From Candidatus Syntropharchaeum sp. (GTDB taxonomy: Archaea; Halobacteriota; Syntropharchaeia; Alkanophagales; Methanospirareceae): DNA of 11,578 nucleotides. Each line of letters opens with the position of its first letter. Within the stretch, counting starts at the first letter, position 1. The notes under the pieces are model-generated. The model searched no databases. It worked only from the letters and a program-made list of their open reading frames with translations, and had not been told where the DNA came from. Of this stretch, positions 5,075 through 8,271 are shown piece by piece. Where the stretch lies: assembly GCA_016782355.1 (NCBI GenBank), contig JADHYP010000028.1:1-11578 (forward strand), in the 5' to 3' direction. The position numbers and the translations under genes were made by a program.

Positions 5075-5958
5075 CAAAGAACTACTATTTTTCTTTTCGC
5101 ATTCTTCGTTTCTTTCTTCCTCAAGAACACTCGCTCGCCCGTGTTCATATCCACGCATTCCATTCCTTTTCCTTTTATCACCTTCTCTACGGAAACTACT
5201 TTATCCTCTATTTCCAACAACGTTCCTTCCCCGAACCCCAGTAGCCGGACAGAAAAGGACACACGGTATATATTCCTGCCGTCTTTCCTGCCATACAATT
5301 TTCGACTCTCTGAAAAACTCCCGCCTAATTTCTTCACTATCCACCTTGAAATCCTGCGACCACAATCCATGCTGCTGACGTATATATCCAGCCCCTCCTT
5401 CAACGTCCTCTCTTCAGAAACAAAATCCTCCTCTCCTAACGAGGAATACGCAATCTCTTCTGCCATAGCGAGTTCTTCATCCGTTGGAATCCTATCCTCC
5501 GCTCTTATTTGCACTATACCCACGTAGTATCCCCCGGCTATCTTACTGCATCTATCACAGGTCTCTTTTTTAAATATAACTTCTACTTCCCCTCTTTCCT
5601 CTATTTCTACCCCCTTTATCTCCGCTTTTACGTCCAACGACACACTCGCTCTATTCTCATCAGCTTTTATCTCTTTTCCCAACCCCGCCACTTCTACCCT
5701 ACATTCGTATCCATACCGCTTTCTTATTTCTTTCCTTACCGAATCCACGACCACTTCCTCTATGCTCGTTCTCTCTTTACCTTTACCCTTGAAATAACCA
5801 CCACAATTCTCGCACACGCTTACTCGTATCTCCAATTCCTCCGCTTCTATTAACCTTATCTCCTTCGTGAAGCACTCTTTGCATAAAGAATCAAAAAGTT
5901 CATCTGTTTTTTTACCACACTTCGGGCAAAATCTACTCCATTTCTCTCTCTCGTTCAT
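5071..5958 (-). CDS. nmd3: NMD3 family ribosome-biogenesis factor
   Basis: A 295-residue archaeal NMD3, the homologue of the eukaryotic 60S export adaptor. In archaea it is expected to act in late maturation or quality control of the 50S subunit, probably with aIF6. Zinc-binding CxxC pairs lie at C11/C14, C26/C29, C49/C52 and C134/C137. The motifs GGYYVGIVQIRA (142-153), SSMDCGRRISRW and YGRKDGRNIYRVSFSVRL are typical of the family. The nuclear shuttling tail of eukaryotic NMD3 is absent, as expected. The first 26 bases of the gene overlap the end of an upstream 61-codon gene, suggesting translational coupling. At the 3' end it shares the palindromic TTAA with the convergent nadE stop. Confidence 0.92.
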   Translation of the reverse strand: MNEREKWSRFCPKCGKKTDELFDSLCKECFTKEIRLIEAEELEIRVSVCENCGGYFKGKGKERTSIEEVVVDSVRKEIRKRYGYECRVEVAGLGKEIKADENRASVSLDVKAEIKGVEIEERGEVEVIFKKETCDRCSKIAGGYYVGIVQIRAEDRIPTDEELAMAEEIAYSSLGEEDFVSEERTLKEGLDIYVSSMDCGRRISRWIVKKLGGSFSESRKLYGRKDGRNIYRVSFSVRLLGFGEGTLLEIEDKVVSVEKVIKGKGMECVDMNTGERVFLRKKETKNAKRKIVVLC

Positions 5959-6118
5959 ATCGCTCTGTTATAAAAGCTCGTTTTGCTTTATATTTCACTT
6001 TCGCCTCGTCATAGCCGTATTCTTCCACGAGCTTCCCCAACAATCTCTTTTTACTTCCCCCCTTCAGTCCCAAATCCTCCATTACTCCCTTAACTATCCT
6101 CTCTTTTTCTTCGCTCAT
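5933..6118 (-). CDS. Small highly charged protein coupled to nmd3, unknown function
   Basis: A 61-residue lysine/glutamate-rich protein with no membrane segment. Two amphipathic stretches are visible, KERIVKGVMEDLGLKGG and LLGKLVEEYGYDEAKVKYKA, around a short GGSKKR turn, suggesting a small helical domain able to contact RNA or ribosomal protein. It starts at ATG 6118, about 33 bp after a good minus-strand TATA box. Its last 26 bases overlap the start of nmd3 in another frame, so the two are almost certainly one transcript. Location suggests a role with NMD3 in ribosome biogenesis, which is inference only. I do not recognise the family. Codon choice and residue composition resemble nmd3, supporting real coding. 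Confidence 0.65.
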   Translation of the reverse strand: MSEEKERIVKGVMEDLGLKGGSKKRLLGKLVEEYGYDEAKVKYKAKRAFITERYEREREME

Positions 6119-6167: not shown

Positions 6168-6183
6168 AAAAGCTTTTTATATA
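6168..6183 (+). promoter_or_regulatory. BRE/TATA promoter of ribK-ribB
   Basis: AAAAGC (BRE-like) followed by TTTTTATATA (6174-6183). The predicted initiation point, about 26 bp from the box centre, is 6204-6206, exactly the middle of the palindrome described in the next entry. Confidence 0.6.
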
Positions 6184-6198
6184 CCCATTTCCTATTTA

Positions 6199-6222
6199 TG
6201 AGATATATCTCAAAATTGAGAT
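6199..6222 (+). promoter_or_regulatory. Triple half-site operator, probable autoregulatory site of the RibK regulator
   Basis: TGAGATATATCTCA (6199-6212) is a perfect 14-bp palindrome. It shares its right half with a second inverted repeat, ATCTCAA-AA-TTGAGAT (6207-6222). The half-site TGAGAT therefore occurs three times: 6199-6204 direct, 6207-6212 inverted, 6217-6222 direct. The array covers the predicted transcription start and lies just before the ATG at 6232. A protein bound here would block initiation. The gene downstream carries its own winged helix, so autoregulation in response to flavin status is the simplest reading. Confidence 0.65.
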
Positions 6223-6231
6223 GCGATAAAG

Positions 6232-6924
6232 ATGAAGATAAAGATGAGCGGGGACATGATGTTCTCGTTAAGGAAACTTGCTTTGTTAGGTGCGGTAGAG
6301 CAACCTGTTAAGTTGTCCTCTGTTCATTTCGCCGAAGCTATTAAATCAAGCGTGCAAACTGCTGGAAGGAGACTCCAGGAGCTTGAGCGTGAAGGTTTCG
6401 TGCATAGAAGAATAACTGCGGATGGGCAGTGGATAATACTAACAAAAAGTGGGATGGAACACCTGAAAGAAGAATGTTACGAATACCAGGAGATATTTTT
6501 TACTACGCAGACTGTCGAACTCGAGTTCGTTGGATGCGTGATTACAGGTTTGGGAGAGGGGGAATATTATACAACGCGGGATGAATATAAAAGGCAGTTC
6601 GAAGTTAAATTAGGTTTCACTCCTTTCCCCGGCACTTTAAATCTCAGATTGGACTCGCAAAGTATAGCAGCGAGGGAGATTCTGGACGTGTGGAAAGGAA
6701 TAGAAATAGCGGGTTTTGAGTCGGAAAAAAGGACTTTTGGCGGTGGCAAGTGCTTCCCGTGTAAAATAATGAACGACGGAGCAGAGGGGATAAAAAGTGC
6801 CGTTATCATTCCTGCACGCACACACTATCCGGAAGACGTGCTGGAGATAATTTCTCCGGTTTACCTGAGATGTGAACTTCAACTAAAGGACGGAGATGAG
6901 ATAAGAGCAAGGGTGATGACATGA
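6232..6924 (+). CDS. ribK: CTP-dependent riboflavin kinase with N-terminal winged-helix domain (RbkR-like)
   Basis: A 230-residue two-domain protein. Residues 1-90 form a winged helix-turn-helix (recognition region AIKSSVQTAGRRLQELEREGFVHRR, split by its turn). Residues 95-229 are the archaeal CTP-dependent riboflavin kinase that makes FMN: GLGEGEYY (107-113), LGFTPFPGTLNLRL (127-140), KRTFGGGKCFP (166-176), RTHYPEDVLEIISP (196-209) and LKDGDEIRARV. Proteins with this architecture are known in archaea as RbkR, a kinase that also represses riboflavin genes. The triple half-site just upstream fits an autoregulatory operator. The stop overlaps the ribB start as ATGA. A second in-frame ATG at 6244 is possible, but the first was chosen because it follows the predicted transcription start. 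Confidence 0.92.
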   Translation: MKIKMSGDMMFSLRKLALLGAVEQPVKLSSVHFAEAIKSSVQTAGRRLQELEREGFVHRRITADGQWIILTKSGMEHLKEECYEYQEIFFTTQTVELEFVGCVITGLGEGEYYTTRDEYKRQFEVKLGFTPFPGTLNLRLDSQSIAAREILDVWKGIEIAGFESEKRTFGGGKCFPCKIMNDGAEGIKSAVIIPARTHYPEDVLEIISPVYLRCELQLKDGDEIRARVMT

Positions 6925-7640
6925 ATATGAGCAGTGTTAACATCCCGGAGTCGGTAAAGAAGGGTATGGAAGATGTAAAAAAGGGCAAGCTCGTGTTAAT
7001 ATACGATGCGGAGGATAGAGAGGGTGAGACTGACTTTGTAATGCCCGCTTCTTTTATGACGTCGAAAAAAGTCGCTTATTTTAGAAAGGAGGCAGGTGGG
7101 CTTATATGCGTTGCCATTCATCCCGTTGCGGCGGAAAAACTTGGTCTTCCCTTCATAAGTGATATTTTAAGAAACGTGAACAGTAGCTTCTCTTCTCTAA
7201 GGAAAATAGTGGAAGAAAAGGGTGACCTTTCATACGATAACCGCTCTTCCTTTTCACTATGGGTGAATCATCGTGATACAGTCACGGGCATAACTGATAG
7301 AGACAGGGCATTGACGATAAAGAAGGTAGGTGAGGCGGTGGAGGGAGTATTAAACGGTAACACTTACGACTTTTACACGGAATTCCGAACCCCCGGGCAT
7401 GTTTCGATATTACGGGCTGCGGATGGGCTACTCGATGAGAGAAGGGGGCAGACCGAACTTTCCGTGGCATTGGCGTTGCTTGCTGGTATATCACCTGCAA
7501 TGGCAATATGCGAAATGCTGGACCGTGAATCGGGAGATGCCCTTTCCAAGGCTAATGCAATAGCTTTCGCATCTGAGCGAGATATGGTTTTTATGGAAGG
7601 AAAAGAGATAGTAGAGGCATGTATATCTTCCCGCATTTGA
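6921..7640 (+). CDS. ribB: 3,4-dihydroxy-2-butanone 4-phosphate synthase (RibB), with Gln at the usual metal-ligand His
   Basis: Converts ribulose 5-phosphate to DHBP plus formate, supplying the four-carbon unit of riboflavin. 239 residues, the single-domain archaeal form without a GTP cyclohydrolase II domain. Motifs are YDAEDREGETDFVMPA (28-43), with the metal and substrate acidic residues, GGLICVAIHP (59-68), TVTGITDRDRALTIKK (120-135), FRTPGHVSILRAADGL (155-170) and ICEMLDRESGDALSK (196-210). In the GHTE motif, whose His ligates Mg2+ in characterised enzymes, this protein has GQTE (Q177, codon CAG). All other key residues are kept, so activity is likely but deserves a check. The start overlaps the ribK stop by four bases (translational coupling), and the unit should respond to the ribK operator. 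Confidence 0.92.
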   Translation: MNMSSVNIPESVKKGMEDVKKGKLVLIYDAEDREGETDFVMPASFMTSKKVAYFRKEAGGLICVAIHPVAAEKLGLPFISDILRNVNSSFSSLRKIVEEKGDLSYDNRSSFSLWVNHRDTVTGITDRDRALTIKKVGEAVEGVLNGNTYDFYTEFRTPGHVSILRAADGLLDERRGQTELSVALALLAGISPAMAICEMLDRESGDALSKANAIAFASERDMVFMEGKEIVEACISSRI

Positions 7641-8199: not shown

Positions 8200-8271
8200 G
8201 CCGCTGTGGCTTAGAGGTAGAGCGGCTGATTCGTAATCAGCAGGTCGTGGGTTCAAATCCCACCAGCGGCT
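8200..8271 (+). tRNA. tRNA-Thr, anticodon CGT
   Basis: A complete 72-base cloverleaf without intron. The acceptor stem GCCGCTG/CAGCGGC is a perfect 7 bp. The D stem is GCTT/GAGC with a GG-containing loop (AGAGGTA). The anticodon stem is GCTGA/TCAGC with loop TTCGTAA, anticodon CGT, reading ACG (threonine). The variable loop is AGGTC, and the T arm is GTGGG-TTCAAAT-CCCAC. The discriminator is T and CCA is not encoded (TTG follows). It is flanked by a well-placed TATA box and a terminator-like hairpin. Confidence 0.97.

Follow-up and report, generated by a model that had tools for sequence, protein, structure and literature searches.

A conserved array of TGAGAT half-sites at archaeal ribK promoters as a probable operator of the riboflavin kinase/regulator RbkR

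The closest described system is RbkR, which the study of Rodionova et al. 2017 (Nucleic Acids Res 45:3785) is said to present as a bifunctional riboflavin kinase and regulator of archaea, with DNA binding that CTP reportedly strengthens and FMN weakens. That study is cited in PMC10746257 and PMC8305020, and a table in the latter lists a Haloferax homologue as gene regulator and enzyme. Pyrococcus furiosus LrpA and Archaeoglobus fulgidus MDR1 are described in PMC2995911 as autoregulators that act downstream of the TATA box by blocking RNA polymerase. The same source describes archaeal Lrp-type activators, such as Ptr2, that bind just upstream of the BRE, with some acting both ways.

Our analysis concerns an 11,578-nucleotide stretch of DNA (hereafter, the window), which is contig C1 of a 1.009-Mb draft genome that is 61 per cent complete. 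Its ribK–ribB promoter reads TGAGAT-AT-ATCTCA-AAAT-TGAGAT at positions 6199–6222 of the forward strand, confirming the three TGAGAT half-sites over 24 bp that a first-pass annotation had picked out. The left arm H1 (TGAGAT, 6199–6204) and the right arm H2 (ATCTCA, 6207–6212), joined by the spacer AT (6205–6206), form a perfect 14-bp palindrome (6199–6212) centred at 6205.5. H2 doubles as the shared middle half-site, and the spacer AAAT (6213–6216) separates it by 4 bp from the third half-site, H3 (TGAGAT, 6217–6222). A worn fourth half-site, H0 (TTCCTA, 6189–6194, forward strand), matches ATCTCA at 3/6 positions and is placed by register with family f8, introduced below. The TATA box of this promoter, TTTATATA, is read from the sequence at 6176–6183 of the same strand, with its centre at 6179.5. 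Archaeal transcription typically starts about 26 bp past the centre of the TATA box, which puts the predicted +1 near 6206, within the palindrome, as the annotation had placed it for this window.

The gene downstream, ribK/rbkR (6232–6924, forward strand), encodes an N-terminal winged-helix-type region and a CTP-dependent riboflavin kinase, the latter identified by PF01982 with 148.2 bits against a cut-off of 25. The gene perhaps truly starts at the ATG at 6244, the position used by several relatives. NF010762, which covers winged helix and riboflavin kinase together, scores 257.4 bits, below its cut-off of 279, and Pfam at an E-value of 0.001 gives no helix-turn-helix domain in the protein. 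An alignment with PDB 3cta/5trd (E = 1.8e-37) runs over residues 13–229 and includes both domains, supporting the earlier claim that the kinase has its own winged helix, as in RbkR; S40, T43, A44 and R46 are invariant in the putative recognition helix across 32 sequences (alignment A1). The closest named proteins come from Methanosarcinales archaeon 1244-F3-H4-B6 (96 per cent) and Methanophagales archaeon Hel0.bin107 (89 per cent). In one other genome (G011), a second, broken ribK-like copy lies in pieces with an in-frame TGA at C6:3019–3603, and the intact copy is on C11. The 3,4-dihydroxy-2-butanone 4-phosphate synthase gene ribB (6921–7640, forward strand; TIGR00506, 229.4 bits, cut-off 177.45) overlaps ribK by 4 bases. 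Elsewhere in the window, a divergent 61-residue open reading frame (5933–6118, reverse strand; MSEEKERIVKG...) overlaps the start of an NMD3-like gene and lies between that gene and the promoter of ribK, and a tRNA gene occupies 8200–8271 of the forward strand.

A bare perfect 14-bp palindrome is ordinary by chance: the window contains two, and a palindrome search with up to three mismatches gave 1 match against a mean of 0.69 over 200 shuffles. The exact pattern TGAGATNNATCTCA appeared in 1 of 2,000 mononucleotide shuffles of the window and is single in the draft genome. At up to two mismatches, the same genome has 27 places against 7 in the control; the two with one mismatch lie inside an open reading frame (L002) and just past one (L003), as judged from open reading frames alone. 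A longer pattern, at up to three mismatches, gave no site in this genome besides the known one. It is conservation upstream of ribK that takes the array beyond chance.

We scored the best match to TGAGATNNATCTCA between 130 bases before and 26 bases after the ribK start at 156 Halobacteriota loci, comprising 56 genomes with a match and 100 of 104 picked among the higher-scoring matches listed (G087, G128, G080 and G186 were left out). At least 10 of the 12 palindrome positions are kept at 113/156 loci, compared with 0/156 for the reversed control, and at least 9 at 144/156, compared with 5/156. The palindrome is thus conserved upstream of ribK orthologues, which supports the first-pass reading of an operator-like element in the ribK–ribB promoter; a lack of such conservation was one of the outcomes that the annotation had named as refuting it. 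By family, at least 10/12 positions are found at 36/39 loci of f1, which we take to be ANME-1, 31/32 of f8, taken as Methanosarcinaceae, and 29/36 of f10, presumably Archaeoglobaceae. This level is absent from f16 (0/8 loci), f9 (0/5) and f27 (0/3), with H1 weak in f9 and f16, and five sampled families (f13, f18, f19, f27 and f29) have no good palindrome, their best being 7–8/12; the motif therefore belongs to part of the phylum. On a crude reading of the 39 ANME-1 loci, the upstream neighbour of ribK is on the same strand at 24, on the opposite strand at 12 and missing at 3, so the operator accompanies ribK whichever gene lies next to it. That upstream gene varies (for example, L016 as against L019 and L032): the window's genus, together with some others, has a divergent NMD3-like gene there, and many of the same-strand neighbours end like the window's rhomboid gene (1268–2038), to judge from their last residues.

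Flanking signals were measured over 144 loci with an anchor built from H1 and H2 only. TGAGAT at the H3 position is the strongest of them (mean 4.76/6 against a background of 1.62, z = 5.9), and the mirrored upstream ATCTCA, H0, is the second (mean 3.40, z = 3.4). With one operator drawn from each of 19 families, H3 scores 4.26 against 1.62 and H0 3.11 against 1.58, values that 0 of 2,000 resamplings reached, whereas moving the offsets by two bases yielded counts of 584, 1,078 and 63 of 2,000. Only this one-per-family test discriminates, because resampling within families is also exceeded by two-base-shifted offsets (for example, −12 and 16 in f1). Setting aside 12 loci below 9/12 and 22 identical operators leaves 122 distinct operators from the 156 loci, among which four half-sites are strong in 7, three in 58, two in 47 and one in 10. 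Among the four, H2 is the best retained, keeping at least 5/6 positions in 107/122, compared with 96/122 for H1.

The outer half-sites differ by lineage. H0 reaches at least 5/6 in 19/25 distinct operators of f8, compared with 2/33 in f1 and 2/31 in f10, whereas H3 does so in 31/31 distinct f10 ribK operators and in 12/33 of ANME-1. A perfect H3 occurs at 4/39 ANME-1 loci (G000, G001, G002 and G023), which are the three genomes of the window's genus and one other. The third half-site of the annotation is thus conserved phylum-wide at its exact spacing, yet mostly worn within ANME-1, and the array it belongs to has four half-sites in full, with the upstream one eroded in the window. On the four-half-site pattern across families, the window's triple site is a well-preserved version of an older array.

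The position of the palindrome relative to the TATA box also varies. The two centres lie 25–28 bp apart in 22 of the 30 ANME-1 operators with a recognised box (33 distinct operators in all) and 25–27 bp apart in 13/13 such operators of f8, where 12 more have no recognised box. The distance is 9–16 bp in 24/26 operators of f10, 14 bp in f5 (2/2), 18 bp in f12 (2/2) and 25 bp in f20 (2/2); no TATA box was recognised in the ribK operators of f16 and f17. The operator is therefore predicted to straddle +1 in both ANME-1 and f8 but to miss it in f10, so that the placement given by the annotation extends to the first two families without being universal.

Beyond ribK, the palindrome lies just upstream of an unlinked ribBA gene in 8/17 genomes of f10, its end lying in 8/8 cases 4 bp short of a T/A-rich, TATA-like stretch; the other 9/17 have no exact site there. 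Its presence at ribBA points to a trans-acting regulator as the likely reader of the motif. H3 is strong at 0/8 of these ribBA sites and H0 at 1/8. Because all 31 distinct f10 ribK operators carry a strong H3, this half-site appears special to the autoregulated promoter, and because ribBA uses H1–H2 alone, the palindrome itself would be the minimal site. A second riboflavin gene thus bears the operator in f10, and in ANME-1 ribB shares the ribK operon.

Genome-wide, the exact palindrome occurs at 31 sites in 59 genomes, compared with 2 in the control: 21 at ribK, 1 at the start of ribBA (G046) and, among the 30/31 inspected, 7 inside open reading frames and 1 between them (L165), where the one neighbouring frame searched (2106–2543) has no family match. 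A looser palindrome gives 69 sites against 4 in the control over the 17 f10 genomes, an excess that we do not use because a bias of coding sequence towards the forward form may contribute to it. Of these sites, 13 are at ribK, 8 at ribBA and 48 elsewhere; 14 of this last group, inspected for open reading frames, divide into 11 inside and 3 marked between them. Three-half-site arrays are also marked between open reading frames at approximately 1488–1511 of L298 (G113) and 1497–1520 of L296 (G134), the latter preceded by a TATA-like stretch; tblastn found no riboflavin gene near either.

The annotation had proposed scanning for the palindrome at further riboflavin genes, and in f10 such sites lie at ribBA. 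In ANME-1, no site within two mismatches turned up at 9 ribH loci or at 4 probable ribC loci, the latter assigned through weak lumazine synthase family matches. Over all families, 19 ribH and 11 probable ribC loci gave nothing within two mismatches except in one genome outside ANME-1 (G047), and also one place each in L132 and L141. In G047, a 10/12 palindrome (L139, 1795–1808) lies 68 bases before the probable ribC match, a possible further target. The window's own genome, at its 61 per cent completeness, has no ribH match, and GTP cyclohydrolase III was matched in 0/22 genomes.

The array is conserved and linked to ribK, its palindrome recurs at ribBA in f10, and the encoded protein is related to 3cta/5trd. 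From these observations we infer RbkR as the binder, repression by its binding and a role for the outer half-sites: the element is probably an RbkR autoregulatory operator, in which a dimer on the palindrome keeps polymerase off and the outer half-sites tune the effect. The dimer would most likely grip H1–H2 through its two winged helices, leaving TBP and TFB in place and keeping RNA polymerase off, since the palindrome covers the predicted start about 26 bp past the TATA box; LrpA and MDR1 offer a precedent for blocking of this kind (PMC2995911). Binding would lower ribK and ribB together, and the outer half-sites (H3 here) may add contacts special to the ribK promoter that tune autoregulation. 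The palindrome-poor families, the weak H1 of f9 and f16, the f10 distance to the TATA box, the lack of a Pfam helix-turn-helix match and the sub-threshold NF010762 score weigh against this reading.

How many dimers the array accommodates is a related question. Two RbkR dimers might compete for H2, pairing H1–H2 against H2–H3 in the stepped or mutually exclusive manner that the annotation had envisaged, or might sit on H0–H1 and H2–H3. The retention of H3 at its fixed 4-bp spacing in the one-per-family test, its strength in every distinct f10 ribK operator against none of the f10 ribBA sites, and the status of H2 as the most kept half-site all fit such an arrangement, as does a negative correlation between H2 and H3 strengths (Spearman −0.28, p = 0.002, 122 operators, uncorrected for kinship). 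The strengths of H1 and H3 show no correlation (0.14, p = 0.13, same operators, likewise uncorrected), which gives no sign of partners that replace one another, and H3 has decayed in most ANME-1 genomes; competition for the middle half-site is possible, but we consider either two-dimer arrangement rather unlikely. Plain repression, combined with the reported effects of CTP and FMN, would raise synthesis when FMN is plentiful, against expectation, and a model in which RbkR is an activator or has a dual role therefore deserves testing. RbkR would then activate ribBA from upstream of its TATA-like box and limit ribK from downstream, which fits those reported effects and the constant 4-bp placement at ribBA. 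Lrp-type activators that bind just upstream of the BRE, some acting both ways, offer a precedent (PMC2995911). Position alone is not proof, as a site near the BRE could equally block TFB, and the ANME-1 site, which covers +1, is a poor spot for an activator; we regard this model as unlikely.

It is more improbable still that a regulator other than RbkR binds the site. Although the palindrome occurs at a few places without a riboflavin gene, the shared targets are riboflavin genes, one of which encodes the candidate binder itself, and a Haloferax relative is called regulator and enzyme in PMC8305020. At the level of RNA, ATCTCA-AAAT-TGAGAT could fold as a 6-bp stem with a 4-base loop, so that leader hairpins H1–H2 and H2–H3 might alternate, or a leaderless frame of 37 codons (MRYISKL...) might begin at 6198. 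Several relatives lack the start codon that precedes H1, and in f10 the distance to the TATA box puts H1 of ribK before the expected start. At f10 ribBA, the palindrome precedes the TATA-like box and should escape transcription, which excludes a transcribed RNA element as the general explanation. Rfam on the window matches only a tRNA, with no FMN riboswitch or other known RNA leader. We rejected the leaderless mini-ORF and the RNA hairpin on the grounds of start-codon loss, TATA positions and Rfam, and give an RNA-level origin hardly any credence. A sigma-70 promoter scan was set aside as irrelevant to archaea.

On comparison of these sequences, the array appears to be a genuine and conserved operator for a regulator of known type, and RbkR as its binder would extend RbkR-type control to uncultured methane-oxidising ANME-1 archaea, for which we know of no earlier report. 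It would also define the operator exactly, together with conserved outer half-sites that belong specifically to the promoter under autoregulation. A literature search found no description of the array, the content of the main RbkR paper lying outside that search; the outer half-sites around the palindrome at the ribK promoter are possibly new. The system lends itself directly to asking whether competing dimers let a metabolic enzyme adjust its own promoter, and whether the operator, placed differently at ribK and at ribBA, represses one of these genes and activates the other. In its fullest and rather speculative form, a symmetric array (ATCTCA-4-TGAGAT-2-ATCTCA-4-TGAGAT) with lineage-specific outer half-sites, on which dimers compete or cooperate, would give stepped autoregulation at the RbkR promoter of Halobacteriota, and the plain ribBA palindrome upstream of the TATA box would have the opposite, activating effect; if true, one enzyme that senses its substrate and product would serve as both brake and accelerator.

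Set beside the described systems, the locus resembles RbkR as reported in its two-part protein and in having its operator at its own gene as well as at riboflavin genes, and departs from that reported picture in its ANME-1 lineage and in the H0 and H3 half-sites around the palindrome. LrpA and MDR1 (PMC2995911) share the proposed blocking of polymerase from a site downstream of the TATA box, but they belong to unrelated protein families, and blocking at ribK is our proposal. Ptr2 and other Lrp-type activators (PMC2995911) parallel the f10 ribBA sites just upstream of a TATA-like box and the extra sites at the regulator's own gene, but they too come from a different protein family, and activation by RbkR would be hypothetical.
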